The notes under the pieces are model-generated. The model saw only the letters and a program-made list of their open reading frames with translations. It was not told where the DNA came from and did no database searches. Below are positions 3,960 through 32,783 of a DNA stretch of 64,000 nt, piece by piece. A program made the translations under genes and the position numbers. This DNA comes from Lysinibacillus sp. 2017 (GTDB taxonomy: Bacteria; Bacillota; Bacilli; Bacillales_A; Planococcaceae), in assembly GCF_003073375.1 (NCBI RefSeq), contig NZ_CP029002.1, positions 3,570,001-3,634,000 of the forward strand, read 5' to 3'. Every line of letters starts with the position of its first letter. Within the stretch, counting starts at the first letter, position 1.

Positions 3960-4499
3960 ATGTATAAAGATAAGGAATTAACAATTCGACCGATCATAGA
4001 AGATGATTTATATCGTTTATGGGAACTCATTTATAAAGAGGAACAGCCTGAGTGGAAAAAGTGGGATGCTCCGTATTATCCGCACCAGTCAAAACCTTAT
4101 GAAGAATTTTTATTATCTAAGGACAAATGGGTTGGCGATGAAAGCTATTGGGTTATTGAAGTCGCAGGTATTGTTCGCGGGATTATCTCGTATTATTGGG
4201 AGCATGAGCCGTCGAAATGGCTAGAGATGGGCATTGTCCTACATGAGGCAGGCTCTTGGGGAAAAGGCATTGGTACACGCGCAATGAATTTATGGGTGAA
4301 CCATTTATTTTCTACGATGCCATTAGTTCGAGTGGGCTTTACCACTTGGTCAGGCAACGAACGAATGATTCGCGTTGGCGAAAAGCTCGGCATGCAAATG
4401 GAAGCAAGAATTCGAAAGGTCCGTTATTACGAAGGCAATTATTATGATTCCATTCGTATGGGGATTTTGCGTGAAGAATGGGAAGCGTTCGATCAATAA
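3960..4499 (+). CDS. GNAT N-acetyltransferase under leader-peptide control
   Basis: 179 residues, RimJ/RimL-like: LTIRPIIEDDLYRLWELIY at the N-terminus, CoA loop SWGKGIGTRAMNLWV near residue 99, and SGNERMIRVGEKLGMQMEARIRK near 130. The start is ATG 3960, eight bases after AAAAGAGG. The upstream open frame from 3891 belongs to the leader region and is not used. The attenuator in front suggests induction by a translation inhibitor, so a resistance-type acetyltransferase is possible, but the substrate is not known. Confidence 0.85.
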   Translation: MYKDKELTIRPIIEDDLYRLWELIYKEEQPEWKKWDAPYYPHQSKPYEEFLLSKDKWVGDESYWVIEVAGIVRGIISYYWEHEPSKWLEMGIVLHEAGSWGKGIGTRAMNLWVNHLFSTMPLVRVGFTTWSGNERMIRVGEKLGMQMEARIRKVRYYEGNYYDSIRMGILREEWEAFDQ

Positions 4500-4510
4500 T
4501 TGAAGTATAT

Positions 4511-4556
4511 AAAAAATCATCTCTTTTAGTTAACAACTTTAAGGAGATGATTTTTT
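4511..4556. terminator. Bidirectional terminator
   Basis: Perfect 13-base inverted repeat AAAAAATCATCTC / GAGATGATTTTTT, giving a hairpin with T-runs on both strands between the converging genes ending at 4499 and 4559. Confidence 0.85.
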
Positions 4557-4558
4557 AT

Positions 4559-5299
4559 TTATAAGTTTTGTATTAGCTTTGCACGTGCCGGCGCTACAAT
4601 GGATTCTATCCTTGGAGCCTTATAACTACTAAGATAATCAGGGGCTTGTTGATAATTGCTTACATCAAATACAAAATCCCCATTCGAATCAATTGCAGGC
4701 ACATAATCAATTAAATAATGAAACAAAATATCTGTTGCATCACTTGGCATATCTGGATCTGGTTTGAAATTTTCTGGTACTTCAGCGGTTACATAGCGGT
4801 ATGTAAACTTAAATTGATTGTCATGAACTTTTTCAAATGCATCATATTCCACTCTTTGCGATTCATAGCCATCATAATAAGTTGTTTTCTTTTGCTCTTC
4901 CGTTAGTGGCAAATTCATTGATATGTCTTTTGCAAGCTGTTGCGTTGCTACCTGATTGACGACGTTTCCTCTTTCATCATACACATACAATTTACCATCG
5001 CCCATATCTGCTAATAAAAAACTTCCGAATGGAATCGCAATCGCATTGCTCAGTAAAGTGACATTATAGGCATCTAGATTTTTGTCGACCTGTTTATCAT
5101 ATAACGTGTCCTCTATCTTAAGCTTTAATTGACCAATACCTAAAAGTGGCATCATGAAGGCAAGCCCCACACTTATAGCAAAAAAGATGAACTTCGTTAT
5201 GAATTGACCGAGACCATATTCATCTTGATCGTAATAGTTAAAATAGAGGCCAACCCCTAATAAAAAGATGATGATAACACGAATTAATGTATTTTTCAC
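4559..5299 (-). CDS. Membrane-anchored protein of unknown function
   Basis: 246 residues, not recognised. Two hydrophobic segments near the N-terminus (about residues 6-19 and 33-54) followed by a soluble domain of about 190 residues rich in acidic and aromatic residues. The start is GTG 5299 after AAAGGG. No signal-peptidase or lipobox motif is obvious, so both segments probably span the membrane with the C-terminal domain on one side. Monocistronic, ending at a bidirectional terminator. Confidence 0.7.
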   Translation of the reverse strand: MKNTLIRVIIIFLLGVGLYFNYYDQDEYGLGQFITKFIFFAISVGLAFMMPLLGIGQLKLKIEDTLYDKQVDKNLDAYNVTLLSNAIAIPFGSFLLADMGDGKLYVYDERGNVVNQVATQQLAKDISMNLPLTEEQKKTTYYDGYESQRVEYDAFEKVHDNQFKFTYRYVTAEVPENFKPDPDMPSDATDILFHYLIDYVPAIDSNGDFVFDVSNYQQAPDYLSSYKAPRIESIVAPARAKLIQNL

Positions 5300-5583
5300 T
5301 TCTGCCCTTTCTAGTTGCTTTCTTCTATAGTTTTATTAATACCTTACCTTCATACTAACTGGAAGTGAAATTTGTTTAAATACAAAAAGATTAATGACCT
5401 TTTCAGCAATCGGCACTAAGCGAGCTGGATCATGCTTTCTTGTTGTTCCTCAGCTAAAGCCTACTACCTCACTATTCCAAAACTCCATAAATTTTTCGCC
5501 ACATATATTAGAATTCTAATTTTCTATTGATAGATTTTACGATAATAGACCATTATTCTACTAATAAGATTATTAAAAGAAGA
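5300..5583. other. Intergenic region with a possible gene remnant
   Basis: No intact gene. On the minus strand 5336-5449 is an open frame of about 38 codons reading KHDPARLVPIAEKVINLF, which looks protein-like but has no start codon and follows a stop. It may be the eroded 3' end of a lost gene. Confidence 0.3.
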
Positions 5584-6447
5584 CTAGTCAACGATAATCT
5601 TGGATTGAATGTATTTCTTTAAGAAATCGTCGTTAGCATTTATTGATAAATAATAGGCGATTTTATACGATTCCATATAATTAGCAATCCCCAACTTCTG
5701 TTCATTATATGCTTTTTCGTAATAGAGATAGTTCAGACGTATTTGCGTACTAATATTCGGTTTATTAGCCCATTCAATCCCTTTTATTGCAATTTCCAAT
5801 GCCTTTTCATAGTTACCATTTTTAGAATATGCATTGGCAATATTAAAAAATACGATAGTCAACTTTTCTTCATTTTCAATTTTTTGATTTTCTTCAACAT
5901 TTGAAAGTATTAATTCAAAATAGTCATTCGCATCTTGTAACATATTTAATTTATTCATCATAATTGCCAAGTTATTGATGATTAAAATCTCTTTATATGT
6001 AAGTTGCTGCTTTTTTGAATGGAACGTAAAAGACAAAGACTTTTCTAGCATTTCATATGATTTATGATGTTCTTCTTTTACGAAACCATAATAAAGGGCT
6101 TCATAAAACAAAATGAGTTGTTGATCCGTTTTTGTGAAAAAATAGGTATTCAGCCGATGTGACTTAATCAGTTGATATAATTCTTCATACTTACGCTGAT
6201 AAAAAAGTGAAGCTAGTTTTTCTTTTAAATCTTGCTTTATATCCAGATCATTCACTGTTTGTATATTTAGTTCATCTAACGAAATACCAAGTCGATTACA
6301 CAACTTTGTTATGAGTTGGATATTGGGAATATGTTTATTGTTCTCGATTTGACTTAACATGCCTTGTGAACAGATTCCATCACACAATTCTTTTTGTGAA
6401 AGACCCTTTAATTTTCGCATGGATTTAATTTTATTCTCTAGGTTCAT
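5584..6447 (-). CDS. PlcR/Rgg-like (RRNPP) peptide-responsive regulator
   Basis: 287 residues, the usual size of PlcR/Rgg/NprR regulators. Residues 5-60 form an XRE-type helix-turn-helix (MRKLKGLSQKELCDGICSQ, SQIENNKHIPNIQLI). The remainder is all-helical with TPR-like units, clearest at FFNIANAYSKNGNYEKALEIA near residue 215; in this family the TPRs bind a secreted and re-imported peptide. Start chosen at ATG 6447 after AGGAG; a longer frame to 6534 would run through the divergent peptide gene. Only 43 bases separate it from the start of the peptide gene at 6491, the arrangement of rgg-shp pairs. Confidence 0.82.
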   Translation of the reverse strand: MNLENKIKSMRKLKGLSQKELCDGICSQGMLSQIENNKHIPNIQLITKLCNRLGISLDELNIQTVNDLDIKQDLKEKLASLFYQRKYEELYQLIKSHRLNTYFFTKTDQQLILFYEALYYGFVKEEHHKSYEMLEKSLSFTFHSKKQQLTYKEILIINNLAIMMNKLNMLQDANDYFELILSNVEENQKIENEEKLTIVFFNIANAYSKNGNYEKALEIAIKGIEWANKPNISTQIRLNYLYYEKAYNEQKLGIANYMESYKIAYYLSINANDDFLKKYIQSKIIVD

Positions 6448-6490
6448 ATGATTTACTCCTATATATCCTATTTTGAAATGAGGTGAGATA

Positions 6491-6556
6491 ATGTTTAAAT
6501 TTGTTATTACTTTCTTAAGTGATTTACCATACAACCTTATTATTCCTTTCCTTTAA
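6491..6556 (+). CDS. Candidate signalling peptide precursor (21 residues) with PapR-like motif
   Basis: Start ATG after GAGGTGAG, an excellent ribosome site, and a strong terminator 17 bases past the stop, so this is a complete minimal gene. The product has a short basic/hydrophobic N-terminus (MFKFVITFL) and a C-terminus SDLPYNLIIPFL. SDLPYNL resembles the PapR heptapeptides that activate PlcR ([AS]D[LM]PF-type, known family knowledge). Divergent from the RRNPP regulator. A -10 TATGAT at 6447-6452 with weak TTTAAT at 6424-6429 could drive it. The pairing with the regulator is inference. Confidence 0.65.
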   Translation: MFKFVITFLSDLPYNLIIPFL

Positions 6557-6572
6557 TTTTATCGTAATTTTG

Positions 6573-6608
6573 CCCTATCAATATAAAAATTGATAGGGTT
6601 TTTATTTT
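6573..6608 (+). terminator. Terminator of the peptide gene
   Basis: Perfect 10-base stem CCCTATCAAT / ATTGATAGGG with a 6-base loop, followed by TTTTTATTTTT on the plus strand. No other plus-strand gene ends here, which supports the short peptide gene as a transcribed unit. Confidence 0.85.
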
Positions 6609-6675
6609 TATCTTAAAAAATATTTGTATTCTAATATTTTGTAGATTGAATGACCTAGTTATCCCACTTATTATT

Positions 6676-6698
6676 TATAATAATCAATGATTATTATA
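6676..6698. promoter_or_regulatory. Perfect 23-bp dyad, candidate operator
   Basis: TATAATAATCA, one central A, TGATTATTATA: a perfect inverted repeat with 11-base arms. It overlaps the -35 position of a plausible promoter (-10 TATAGT at 6712-6717) for the small gene at 6778. Proximity suggests the RRNPP regulator as its binder, but it is unlike the PlcR box and this is inference. Confidence 0.5.
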
Positions 6699-6777
6699 GA
6701 GTGCTACTTTTTATAGTATTCTTCCATCAATGATAATTTCCCTCTATAGATTAATTTAGTAAAGGCGGTGTCTTGAG

Positions 6778-7068
6778 ATGAATTATATAAATAAAAAAAT
6801 TCCCTTTTCAAACCCTTACATCGAAATTGAAATCTTCATTGGGTTGACCAATAAAAAAACAGTGACCGTACTTTTTGATAAATGGTATTTTGAAGTACAG
6901 TTTTTTTTAAATGAAGGCAGTGAGTGTATCGAGAACACTATAGAAATTGCACAATATCATTTTGATACATTAGAAGAAGCTGACTACTTTTTTAATAGCT
7001 TCTCAAATGATTACCAAAAACTTCATTTCCTACTAAATAAACATCTTCCTATTAAACACACATCATAG
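6778..7068 (+). CDS. Small protein of unknown function, possible target of the peptide regulator
   Basis: 96 residues, not recognised. No membrane segment, signal peptide or cysteine motif; rich in aromatic and acidic residues (EEADYFFNSFSNDYQKLHFL). AAGGCGG lies upstream of ATG 6778. The perfect dyad at 6676 sits in its promoter region, so it may be the regulated output of the regulator/peptide pair. No neighbour shares its transcript: 450 bases without a clear gene follow. Confidence 0.6.
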   Translation: MNYINKKIPFSNPYIEIEIFIGLTNKKTVTVLFDKWYFEVQFFLNEGSECIENTIEIAQYHFDTLEEADYFFNSFSNDYQKLHFLLNKHLPIKHTS

Positions 7069-7521
7069 TATTACAAACTTAATCTGTGGTATTAACTATA
7101 TAAATGCTGCTCAAATAAGCATTGGTCATTGCTGTCGTTACCAAACGCGAAAATATCATCGACCGTTAATTTTCGCTCTTATTACGTTGTTACGTTAACA
7201 GGTGATGCTTATTGCATAGATTACTTGTTACAACAGTTCCTTTGAATGATCACCGAAGTAATCAAATAGCTGTCCTTTCTTTGCCTTCCAATTCAACAAG
7301 TGTGCGATATAACCTAAAAAACATACAATTTCCTCGGACAAAAAGCCCCCCTCATCATTCCCCTCCTTTTACTCACTACTTTGATGGGTAATTTTTTTCT
7401 CGTTAACTTCTTGACTTTAAGTTTTGCTGACGAGAGACCATTTACAAATTCTACAATTGATATGCTCACTTTAGTATAATTACAATATTATGACAATTAT
7501 CTAATTTATTGGGAGGCAGCT
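7069..7521. other. Intergenic region, weak short frame only
   Basis: No clear gene in 453 bases. On the minus strand 7228-7341 a 37-codon frame starts at TTG behind AGGGGGG and reads SEEIVCFLGYIAHLLNWKAK, protein-like but without relatives I recognise; it may be a small gene or a remnant. Near 7402 and 7421 two GTT-containing half-sites lie 19 bases apart upstream of the LytTR gene, too weak to call. Confidence 0.3.
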
Positions 7522-8451
7522 ATGATTATTAAAGAAGTATTTTACAAAGGGAAAACATTAATACCAGAATTAAAGCTCAAGCCTGAAATACATGAAATCA
7601 TCGGCATTCAAACGGATGTGCTAAGAAAGCAATCCTTATTAGCCGAATTAAAAATGCAAGACTATATTTATATTTCAAATGCAAATACAGGTGAATATGA
7701 ACGTCATACAGTAAAAGAGCTTTTAAAATTTTTAGCTACTATTACTGGGAGTTTACATAAGATTGATTTTTTAATTGAAAAGTTTGGACTAACGGATATA
7801 CAACACACGAGAATTAAACATATTCCTTATTCAAAGCAAATCTTTATTAAGCAATTACGTGTTTACTTTGCACAGCAACCGACAATCGTTCTAGAAGAAC
7901 CCTATTTTTATCTTGATGAATCGGATCGAAAAATTTTCAGTAGAATTTTAGACGAACTTTCTTCAACGAAAAGATTAGTTATTTTAGCTTCTAATTTAGA
8001 AGATGCCTTAATTTCTTGTCATAAAATCTATCGATTGGATGAGCAAGGTTTAAAGCAATTAGATATTGCAGATTCAGAAGATCAAGAAGAAGCTATAGAA
8101 GAACCTCAACCATTTAAATTAGAAAAAATTTCAACGAGGAAAAACGAAAAAACTATCCTTTTTGATCCACCTGAAATTGATTATATCGAGAGTGTTGAAG
8201 GGACAATATTGGTTCATGTAGGTGGGGAAAATTATTCGTGTGCATTGACTTTAACCGAGCTTGAAAAAAGATTAAAATCATACGGTTTCTTTAGATGTCA
8301 TCGTTCCTATATTGTAAATCTCCAAAAGGTACGAGAAATTATTACATGGACGAAAAATAGTTATAGTTTACGATTAAATATAGGGAAAGATTCAGTTGTA
8401 CCTTTATCGAGAGCGAAACTACAAGATTTACGAGACCTATTGAATATTTAA
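7522..8451 (+). CDS. LytTR transcriptional regulator with degenerate ABC-ATPase domain
   Basis: 309 residues. The C-terminal ~100 residues are a LytTR DNA-binding domain: YIESVEGTILVHVGG, then FFRCHRSYIVNLQKVREI and VPLSRAKLQDLRDLL. The N-terminal ~190 residues follow the layout of an ABC ATPase but with decayed motifs: the P-loop position reads GIQTDVLRKQSLL with no GxxGxGK, Walker B is TIVLEEPYFYLDESD and the H-loop histidine is Asn (LASNLEDA). The family knows such ABC-like LytTR regulators beside ABC exporters; the dead ATPase may sense the transporter. GGGAGG precedes the ATG. The exporter follows after 139 bases. Confidence 0.88.
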   Translation: MIIKEVFYKGKTLIPELKLKPEIHEIIGIQTDVLRKQSLLAELKMQDYIYISNANTGEYERHTVKELLKFLATITGSLHKIDFLIEKFGLTDIQHTRIKHIPYSKQIFIKQLRVYFAQQPTIVLEEPYFYLDESDRKIFSRILDELSSTKRLVILASNLEDALISCHKIYRLDEQGLKQLDIADSEDQEEAIEEPQPFKLEKISTRKNEKTILFDPPEIDYIESVEGTILVHVGGENYSCALTLTELEKRLKSYGFFRCHRSYIVNLQKVREIITWTKNSYSLRLNIGKDSVVPLSRAKLQDLRDLLNI

Positions 8452-8492
8452 TTTCCTAGGAAATAATTCGACAACTTGAACCTCCATTCGGT

Positions 8493-8522
8493 ACAGTTCA
8501 ACGGAAAATAGGTACAATTCAA
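8493..8522 (+). promoter_or_regulatory. Tandem LytTR-type operator
   Basis: ACAGTTCAA, 12 bases, ACAATTCAA. The whole 21-base unit GGTACANTTCAACGGAAAA is duplicated in tandem at 8490-8510 and 8511-8531, and a weaker third copy (CAACTTGAA, 8472-8480) lies exactly 21 bases upstream. Nine-base direct repeats with 12-base spacers are the known binding pattern of LytTR proteins (ComE/PlnC/AgrA type). Lies between the LytTR gene and the exporter. A separate 15-base palindrome, TTACACT-C-AGTGTAA, is at 8555-8569. Confidence 0.75.
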
Positions 8523-8590
8523 CGGAAAACAGCAGTCTTTGTTCATTTCTTCTTTTACACTCAGTGTAACAACTTGAAGGAGTGATGAAG

Positions 8591-9436
8591 ATGAACGTGA
8601 TTTCTGTTCAAAATATTAAAAAGCGCTTCGATAAAAAAGAGGCGTTATCGAATGTTTCTTTTACAATTCCAAAGGGTGAGATTTTTGGCTTTCTTGGTCC
8701 TAGTGGCTCAGGAAAAACGACCCTCATTAAAATTTTGACAGCTCAACTAGAACAAACAGTTGGGCAAGCAATGGTACTTGGTTCACCAGCCAAACAAATG
8801 CAGACTGCCAAACAAAAAAACCGCTTCGGTATTTTAACAGATAATAGTGGCTTATATGATCGTTTAACGATTGAGGAAAATCTAGAAGTTTTCCGTCAAT
8901 TGTACGAACTCCCAAAAAGTTCAGTCGATAAGGTATTGGACTTTGTAAATTTAAAAGAAGATCGAAAAAAACGTGTCAATCAACTATCTAAAGGAATGCG
9001 ACAACGTGTGACACTTGCATGTGCAATTATCCATGAACCAGAATTGCTATTTTTAGATGAGCCGACCTCTGCGCTAGATCCTATGAATACGGCGCATATT
9101 TACAAAGGCTTACGTTATTTAAATGATCGTGGTACAACAATTTTTTTAACGACTCATGATATGACAGAAGCCGAAACACTTTGTGACAGAGTCGCGATTT
9201 TGCACAAAGGTGAAATTCAAGCAATCGGAGCACCACAAGAGTTAAAAAAACAGTATCGAGATGGTGTGATTCATGTGGAATTGAAAGATGGAAAAATTCA
9301 TGAATTATCGATGGATGAACGGTCAGGAACTCAAATTTCGCATTGGCTCGCAACAAATCAGCTCGACTCCATTAAGACAAGTGAACCAAGCTTAGGGGAT
9401 ATATTTATGAAGCTAACAGGGAGTGAATTATCATGA
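8591..9436 (+). CDS. ABC exporter, ATP-binding subunit
   Basis: 281 residues. Walker [10 protein letters not shown] near residue 37, signature LSKGMRQRV near 134, Walker B LLFLDEPTSALD near 155, H-loop LTTHDMTEAE. A C-terminal extension of about 70 residues is typical of drug/antibiotic export ATPases of the CcmA class. ATG 8591 is eight bases after AAGGAG; the upstream GTG and ATG are too close to that site. Partner of the permease, whose start overlaps its stop by four bases. Likely controlled by the LytTR regulator in front. Substrate unknown. Confidence 0.9.
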   Translation: MNVISVQNIKKRFDKKEALSNVSFTIPKGEIFGFLGPSGSGKTTLIKILTAQLEQTVGQAMVLGSPAKQMQTAKQKNRFGILTDNSGLYDRLTIEENLEVFRQLYELPKSSVDKVLDFVNLKEDRKKRVNQLSKGMRQRVTLACAIIHEPELLFLDEPTSALDPMNTAHIYKGLRYLNDRGTTIFLTTHDMTEAETLCDRVAILHKGEIQAIGAPQELKKQYRDGVIHVELKDGKIHELSMDERSGTQISHWLATNQLDSIKTSEPSLGDIFMKLTGSELS

Positions 9437-10140
9437 ACATTTCATACAAAAGAATTCAAGCAATTTTTTTAAAGGACTATAAGGAATTTTCAAGAAACTA
9501 TGCGATTTCCATCATATTATTTTTCCCGATATTATTTGCCTTACTTTATCGCAGTGATGATCCTACACAAACTTTTATGACAGCATTCGTACTTAATTTT
9601 TCATTTGCCATGTTAACAAGCTTTGTTCAGGCATGTCTAATTGCTGAAGAAAAAGAAAAAAATACCCTACGTTCTTTAATGATGACACCCGCTAGTATTT
9701 TTGATGTGCTTTTAGGAAAAAGTGCTTTAGTTTTTGTATTATCAGCTTTTATTCTTGCTGTCACTGTCTATATTTTGGGCTATACGCCTGACAATTATGC
9801 TGTATTTATTGTAGCTGTTATATTATCGATTATTTTGTACACTGCATTAGGTACAATTTGCGGGCTGTTTTCAAAATCAGTCATGGAAGCTTCTTTAGCC
9901 GTATTCCCTGTATTGATCATCTTTACTGCGAGTCAATTTGGAATTATGTTTGAAGACCGTTTTCCATTCTTAGCTATTTTAGAATATTTCCCGAGTGCGC
10001 AATTAGCGAATTTACTTGACCTCATGCAGACAAATTATAAACTTTCCGATACGTTTGAAAGCTTAGGCATTATGCTTATTTGGACAATTGCTGTAACAAT
10101 CATTTCCGTTATCCTTTATAAAAAGCGCTTGATGGACTAA
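9433..10140 (+). CDS. ABC exporter, ABC-2-type permease subunit
   Basis: 235 residues with about six hydrophobic segments (around residues 24-39, 48-66, 98-116, 125-150, 156-172 and 210-228), the ABC-2 permease layout. EEKEKNTLRSLMMTPAS is the conserved coupling-helix region of the family (EEKE...L..L..TP). Overlaps the ATPase by ATGA. Resembles fluoroquinolone-export-type permeases of Bacillales, but the substrate is not shown by the sequence. Confidence 0.87.
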   Translation: MNISYKRIQAIFLKDYKEFSRNYAISIILFFPILFALLYRSDDPTQTFMTAFVLNFSFAMLTSFVQACLIAEEKEKNTLRSLMMTPASIFDVLLGKSALVFVLSAFILAVTVYILGYTPDNYAVFIVAVILSIILYTALGTICGLFSKSVMEASLAVFPVLIIFTASQFGIMFEDRFPFLAILEYFPSAQLANLLDLMQTNYKLSDTFESLGIMLIWTIAVTIISVILYKKRLMD

Positions 10141-10151
10141 TCATTTCTCTA

Positions 10152-10200
10152 AAAATATTAGGCACATGAGTAAAATAGTTTCTCATGTGCCTGATATTTT
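10152..10200. terminator. Bidirectional terminator-like hairpin
   Basis: AGGCACATGAG / CTCATGTGCCT, a perfect 11-base stem extended by AAAATAT / ATATTTT, right after the permease stop. Confidence 0.75.
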
Positions 10201-10346
10201 ATTTATTAAATTTGTCCATTTCCTTTATGAAAAGTTATAGCCCTCATTCATTTTTGAATGCATGCTTCTTTGATTTTGTGGAGTCTATGCGTTTCTCTGC
10301 CCGTGGAAATCATGTTTTTTAAACTTGCATACTACTTTTAAATAGA

Positions 10347-32751: not shown

Positions 32752-32783
32752 AAACACGCCATTGTCCGACAATGGCGTGTTTC
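32752..32783. terminator. Bidirectional terminator between gerD and salA
   Basis: AAACACGCCATTGT / ACAATGGCGTGTTT, a perfect 14-base stem with a three-base loop. Confidence 0.9.

Follow-up and report, generated by a model that had tools for sequence, protein, structure and literature searches.

A PlcR-like receptor and a leaderless PapR-type peptide gene form a candidate quorum-sensing circuit in Lysinibacillus sp. 2017

In Lysinibacillus sp. 2017, a regulator gene and a frame of only 21 codons diverge from start codons 43 bases apart (6448-6490). Does this arrangement encode a peptide signal and its receptor and, if so, of which kind? An earlier note on this DNA, made from the letters alone, had proposed such a module. 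We therefore examined the locus within its window, that is, the whole stretch of DNA analysed (64,000 nucleotides of contig NZ_CP029002.1), whose numbering is used throughout. The two genes and their signals are as follows.

5584..6447, minus strand: PlcR-like HTH-TPR receptor or regulator, 287 aa (HTH_3, PlcR sequence matches, Foldseek).
6480..6486, plus strand: ribosome binding site of the peptide gene, GAGGTGA, from the sequence.
6491..6556, plus strand: putative leaderless 21-aa signal peptide precursor with core SDLPYNL, conserved and under purifying selection beside both orthologous regulators.
6572..6599, plus strand: stem resembling an intrinsic terminator, with a T-rich tail behind it, that would end the peptide transcript.

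The regulator contains an HTH_3 domain above the Pfam cut-off (E 1.7e-13), and TPR models scored below theirs. No NCBIfam model reached its cut-off, and there was no Rgg match. Among solved structures, PlcR was recovered with E 6.2e-12 by the sequence alone and 4.4e-16 with a three-row profile, and was the sole protein spanning both the HTH and TPR parts by sequence; designed TPR proteins gave lower E-values, over a short TPR stretch only. A model was then computed with AlphaFold2 from a 24-row alignment (mean pLDDT 90.3, pTM 0.72). With this model, Foldseek ranks 1 to 5 were all PlcR entries (TM 0.64-0.74), the first being the PapR7-DNA complex. ComR, Rgg2 and PrgX ranked below PlcR, and Rgg2 also below ComR. 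The predicted receptor fold is of PlcR type, and neither NCBIfam nor Foldseek indicated an Rgg-type receptor. At 287 aa, the protein has the HTH plus TPR fold of RRNPP receptors of 250-500 aa; the HTH_3, PlcR and Foldseek matches support the RRNPP-type regulator of the earlier note. The Pfam model RNPP_C, however, failed at E up to 10 to recognise any of this clade's three receptors, which we counted against a signalling reading. It did match all three other RRNPP-like regulators scanned (L036, L002 and the L172 regulator described below). PlcR-like in sequence and predicted fold yet without an RNPP_C match, the regulator is best described as a divergent PlcR-like lineage of RRNPP receptors. 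In the PlcR alignment, N202 of the regulator stands opposite PlcR N201, and R85 opposite PlcR K89. A docking model of PlcRa has contacts at K89, Q161, N205, K208 and Y280 (PMC3519770), and N202 and R85 may line the peptide pocket.

Strong orthologs of the regulator were found in two other genomes (60% and 57%) among 261 genomes of the family, own included. A profile search of the same set returned these two and one distant match (E 2e-27). In a sample of 398 genomes from the class, nothing outside the own genome scored better than E 1.8e-31, far weaker than the orthologs' value of about 1e-158. On GTDB contigs, the ortholog hosts are Viridibacillus soli YIM B01967 and Lysinibacillus contaminans DSM 25560. 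The scan of these contigs, which requires one of two exact peptide patterns and can miss orthologs, returned 64 loci, the next best segment reaching 52% over 52 residues. Within the genus, 3 of 16 genomes matched the regulator at E 1e-10, the two others than the own at only 27-35%. In a tree of 76 regulators, restricted to lengths of 240-340 aa, the three regulators formed one clade (support 100/100, stem 1.02). Their presence in three genera and absence elsewhere would point to transfer or loss. A phage or plasmid origin was considered and set aside: two scans of viral contigs returned no relative. Plasmid and phage records (126 and 6 matches, respectively) were each below 60% identity.

Both orthologs adjoin a 22-codon frame of the form MLDFxITxLSDLPYNxI... 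with a good ribosome site. The V. soli peptide, MLDFLITILSDLPYNLIHFFKF, is encoded divergently, 36 bases from the regulator start. In L. contaminans, the peptide MLDFFITLLSDLPYNYIQFLIK is encoded about 130 bases past the regulator stop on the same strand; this receptor-peptide tandem is also the order of plcR-papR. Thus, the divergent layout, which had been likened to rgg-shp pairs, holds in the window and V. soli but not in L. contaminans. Retention of the short frame beside orthologous regulators had been set beforehand as a check, and the frame was kept beside two of two. Since both orthologs adjoin the same peptide, the pair is more than a chance neighbourhood.

The first 17 codons of the three peptide genes were compared pairwise. 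Differences at codon positions 1/2/3 numbered 6/0/9, 3/1/9 and 5/1/6, and random substitution trials matched the observed peptide identity in 2, 44 and 2 of 5000 for the three pairs. Twelve peptide residues are invariant, and seven of these have varying codons. The few second-position differences and the varying codons argue that the peptide gene is real and selected as a protein. A degenerate DNA pattern of the core occurred in 16 of the 261 genomes (reversed control: 4). Each place was read: 13 were frames without the peptide and were discarded, and the peptide frame was present only in the three regulator genomes. The co-occurrence of the peptide frame with this regulator, which the earlier note had asked for, was found in these three of the 261 genomes. 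Three loci are too few to follow covariation between core and receptor. No literature on this regulator-peptide pair was found in the searched library, which lacks most subscription papers, and the string SDLPYN turned up in a single, unrelated paper. A contig of another assembly (L109 of G072, fragmented and with 8% contamination) is 98.6% identical to window 6889-8564; it lacks 5653-5750 and 5780-6888, a gap that takes in the peptide gene, the promoter of the 96-aa gene described below and the greater part of the regulator.

In the window, the peptide gene has 66 bases and encodes MFKFVITFLSDLPYNLIIPFL. Its good ribosome site and own terminator, both claimed earlier, were found again (GAGGTGA at 6480-6486; stem at 6572-6599); a terminator scan gave 2 in 3 kb against 0.8 expected. 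A small precursor gene with a ribosome site beside the receptor is what an RRNPP system has. The likeness of SDLPYNL to PapR heptapeptides also held, the invariant core SDLPYN(L/Y) being in register with ADLPFEF of PapR7; CSIPYEY of PapRa7, which lies inside its precursor, fits less tightly (PMC3519770).

Regulators more distantly related to ours adjoin longer frames with hydrophobic leaders, some of which end in LPYQH, LPFRH, LPFKH, LPYEH or LPFEH; others end in DLGSLD or PPEYTHG. Going by these LPY- and LPF-type endings, the core fits this receptor branch, and the odd feature is the leaderless precursor of 21-22 residues. Nine loci of halophilic Bacillaceae (L038, L039, L041, L042, L043, L055, L058, L061, L068) also contain distantly related regulators; the divergent frames beside these have leaders and 49-53 codons and end in DLG(S/T/A)(L/I/M)D, possibly a separate pheromone family. 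In Enterococcus rivorum (L046, 4835-4897, minus strand), a 29% relative of the regulator adjoins a divergent leaderless frame of 20 codons, MNLFTTILISITPYGNAGGI, with a TTG start and a strong ribosome site.

Where might the receptor bind, and what might it control? The candidate elements lie downstream of the peptide gene.

6619..6638, no strand assigned: proposed receptor box AATATTTGTATTCTAATATT before the 96-aa gene, the sole exact AATATTNGNATTCNAATATT in the own genome.
6646..6674, plus strand: promoter-like TTGAAT-17-TATTAT of the 96-aa gene, a fair match (9 of 12).
6676..6698, no strand assigned: perfect 23-bp dyad just after the -10-like hexamer.
6778..7068, plus strand: 96-aa protein of no known family, probable target, with box and promoter upstream.

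The earlier note had taken the 23-bp dyad as the operator. The dyad exists and is unlikely to be there by chance: when the surrounding 2.2 kb was shuffled 500 times, only one shuffle held a perfect dyad with arms of at least 11. It has one exact place in the own genome, the next having 3 mismatches. As an operator it was rejected: no copy was seen among the palindromes found at the orthologous loci, with which the window shares another palindrome instead. This palindrome, AATATTnGnATTCnAATATT, is the likelier operator. Half of the dyad repeats 43 bases downstream (window 6683-6695, ATCAATGATTATT; 6726-6738, ATCAATGATAATT), so the 96-aa gene may also be under the control of another regulator. 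The sole other perfect dyad in the window with arms of at least 10 has 15-bp arms (32752-32782).

The own genome has a single exact AATATTNGNATTCNAATATT, at 6619-6638. L. contaminans has two, one preceding the peptide gene and the other a ThiF-like gene at a distance of 2 kb. The promoters of the 96-aa gene and of L. contaminans thiF share 34 nt at 88% (BLAST, E 6e-6). Box and -10-like hexamer are 30 nt apart at the 96-aa gene (TATTAT), 30 nt at thiF (TAATAT) and 27 nt at the L. contaminans peptide gene (TATAAA). A 16-bp box core, searched at up to 2 mismatches, has four places in the own genome, two of them in the locus, and six in L. contaminans, where the two best also belong to the locus. 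Against a reversed control, these counts (own 4/2, L. contaminans 6/3, V. soli 2/7) show no clear excess, so the argument for the box rests on position. At up to 3 mismatches, the box matched five places in the window (1.06 expected; 0 of 100 shuffles reached 5) and two in the L. contaminans locus L031 (0.26 expected; 5 of 200 shuffles reached 2). Two further results were counted against the signalling reading: the V. soli locus has no core box within 2 mismatches, the best copy having 3, and among the palindromes listed for the window and V. soli none is a box immediately before the peptide gene. Promoter-like matches were not above chance, either in the window region (16 versus 16.8 expected) or in further scans (11 versus 10.8 and 8 versus 18.0 expected). 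Rfam gave nothing at gathering score in 4400-8600.

The 96-aa protein had no family in Pfam, NCBIfam, PHROGs or PADLOC, and its best PDB match had E 0.6. At E 0.01, it matched in 7 of 261 genomes, own included; the relatives are three genus members at 29-35%, two weak ones and a near-identical fragment (L109). Its model, of modest confidence (pLDDT 71.4), has four strands and two helices. The gene is the probable target in the window, as had been proposed, but the box-linked gene differs in L. contaminans, so that at least one putative target is specific to a species. There, it encodes a ThiF-domain protein whose best solved relative is MccB (E 1.4e-18) and for which no NCBIfam model reached its cut-off. 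Relatives of this protein at E 1e-25 were found in 2 of the 261 family genomes, G189 being one, and the own genome has none. In V. soli, a broken class-V aminotransferase gene lies downstream of the peptide gene, and no box was found before it. Circuits of this kind may plausibly control modified peptides. Around the locus in the window, the gene at 4559-5299 is present in 3 of 16 genus genomes, own included, and 7522-10140 holds a LytTR-domain protein followed by frames that look, by eye, like an ABC ATPase and a membrane protein.

A RiPP-like cluster of G189 (L172, 3685-10217) contains a similar pair (9181-10217). Its RNPP_C-HTH regulator is divergent from a 34-codon frame ending in LDLPFVH. 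The cluster further comprises a ThiF gene, a radical-SAM methyltransferase of RiPP type (TIGR03975, E 8e-173) and the 18-codon frame MRIVKVKPTTKRLLVNRS in two identical copies. It shares with our locus an HTH regulator with a divergent short frame and a DLP-type core, and with the L. contaminans locus a ThiF gene nearby. It differs in that its regulator hits RNPP_C at 136.7 bits and its frame has 34 codons with the core at the C-terminus.

Altogether, we consider it likely that the locus is a locally acting quorum-sensing circuit of the PlcR-like type, whose signal has a PapR-type core but comes from a precursor without a leader. The regulator would be the cytoplasmic receptor. The 21-codon gene would supply the ligand, its invariant core SDLPYN(L/Y) being the counterpart of ADLPFEF, the heptapeptide of PapR. 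After export and trimming, the peptide would re-enter the cell and occupy the TPR domain. Once loaded, the receptor would recognise the 20-bp palindrome AATATTnGnATTCnAATATT, which precedes the -35 region, and activate the neighbouring target, the 96-aa gene in the window and, in L. contaminans, the MccB-like ThiF gene and the peptide gene itself. The PlcR-like sequence and predicted fold, the conservation and coding selection of the peptide, the co-occurrence and the common box-promoter DNA form the observed base; from it we infer that the peptide is processed, exported, taken up again and bound, that the receptor activates and does not repress, and that the circuit depends on cell density.

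The direction of control has a rival reading. As proposed for some RRNPP members, the receptor could be a repressor and the palindrome its repression site, the peptide relieving repression. The distance from box to promoter is no proof of activation, and a fair promoter (9 of 12) follows the box. However, the box lies ahead of the -35 hexamer and not over the promoter, as PlcR boxes do, which have a sigma-A -10 downstream (PMC2464732), and PlcR is an activator. Repression thus seems unlikely to us, and since the box is ahead of the -35 as in PlcR, we read 6619-6638 as a putative activator site.

How would the peptide gene itself be read? Two further elements bear on this question.

5504..5523, no strand assigned: second proposed box TATATTAGAATTCTAATTTT, with 2 mismatches to the exact L. 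contaminans box, 60 bases past the regulator stop.
5527..5556, plus strand: promoter-like TTGATA-18-CATTAT, antisense to the regulator and directed at the peptide gene.

A box copy lies just 3' of the regulator in all three loci. In V. soli it has 3 mismatches (L030, 5458-5477); in L. contaminans it is exact and overlaps the regulator stop codon, and we propose that it serves the tandem peptide gene. Window 5505-5537 matches the L. contaminans peptide promoter over 33 nt at 85% (BLAST, E 0.001). Over 16 nt, the DNA after the second box gave 10 identities with that promoter in the plus orientation against 6 in the minus orientation in both the window and V. soli (P about 0.015 each), a length chosen after looking and two sites that are not independent; over 30 nt with shifts, P was 0.15 and 0.50. 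No intrinsic terminators were found between the second box and the peptide gene on that strand. The likeness of the downstream DNA, the lack of a terminator and the lack of a box before the peptide gene weakly suggest that the peptide gene is read from the second box, antisense to the receptor. A fuller version, which we regard as doubtful, is a self-limiting quorum circuit in the divergent loci: the loaded receptor, at 5504-5523 in the window, would start a transcript of about 1 kb running antisense through the receptor gene into the peptide gene, making signal and receptor production mutually exclusive, with a PapR-type core, a leaderless precursor and a receptor lineage invisible to RNPP_C.

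The lack of a classical cleavable signal, which had been noticed before, was borne out, since no obvious leader was seen on inspection of the three short, hydrophobic precursors. The peptide could then be a cell-autonomous co-factor that binds the receptor inside the producing cell, an internal timer instead of quorum sensing. The V. soli and L. contaminans precursors, which begin MLDF without a basic residue ahead of the core, fit this idea; SHP-like precursors are described with basic N-termini (PMC10075063). However, a missing leader does not exclude export, because the short non-Sec precursors SHP and ComS are exported by PptAB (PMC7564271), and we judge an internal timer decidedly unlikely. 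That the frame is instead a leader or a membrane-active small peptide and not a ligand is highly improbable: it is short and hydrophobic and lies at the 5' end of the regulator in two of three loci, but the L. contaminans copy is on the other side with its own box-promoter, the invariant part is in register with the PapR core (PMC3519770), and the frame was found only in regulator genomes.

The quorum-sensing reading leaves the question of which known system the pair resembles. With PlcR-PapR and PlcRa-PapRa of the Bacillus cereus group it shares the best fold and the full-length sequence match, the tandem order in L. contaminans, the heptapeptide core in register (ADLPFEF, more loosely CSIPYEY; PMC3519770) and a palindromic box ahead of the -35 (PMC2464732). 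It differs in the precursor, which has 21-22 aa and no obvious leader, whereas PapR and PapRa, of 45 and 93 aa, carry signal peptides (PMC3519770). Nor is the core C-terminal as in PapR: 5-7 further residues follow SDLPYN(L/Y). The box is also another one. The PlcR box TATGnAnnnnTnCATA, at up to 1 mismatch, had three matches in the window against 3.6 expected, none in the locus, and three in L031, none at the peptide or thiF promoter. Exact boxes occur here only at the locus, whereas PlcR has 28 boxes and 45 genes. The pair is not filed as a PapR system because the signal peptide, the C-terminal core and the PlcR box were looked for and not found.

With Rgg-SHP and ComR-ComS of streptococci it shares the short hydrophobic precursor without a Sec leader and, in the window and V. 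soli, the divergent layout. ComS of S. thermophilus is leaderless and likewise carries LPY (PMC12445099, table); by analogy, the mature peptide here could be the whole C-terminal SDLPYNLIIPFL. In contrast, the receptor is closer by fold to PlcR than to ComR or Rgg, and two of three precursors lack an N-terminal basic stretch. RopB-LCP resembles our pair in having no secretion signal, and an L. sphaericus LCP has a C-terminal extension (PMC10518010), but most LCPs are encoded as signals of only 8-10 aa and are paired with RopB-clan receptors, whereas here a 21-22-aa precursor accompanies a PlcR-like receptor. The pair would work like a cross of the PlcR-PapR and the SHP or ComS systems.

In the RRNPP_detector paper, only the Rgg and PrgX subfamilies are named as exceptions to Sec export (PMC10075063). 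A leaderless PapR-type core beside a PlcR-like receptor would bridge the Sec-exported and the leaderless classes. Both halves of the pair escape the usual detection, the peptide having no leader for signal-peptide programs and the receptor no RNPP_C match. The MccB-like target in L. contaminans and the DLPF-ending pair beside the G189 RiPP cluster hint at control of modified peptides. Finally, the pair offers a test of how leaderless pheromones exit from Bacillales cells.
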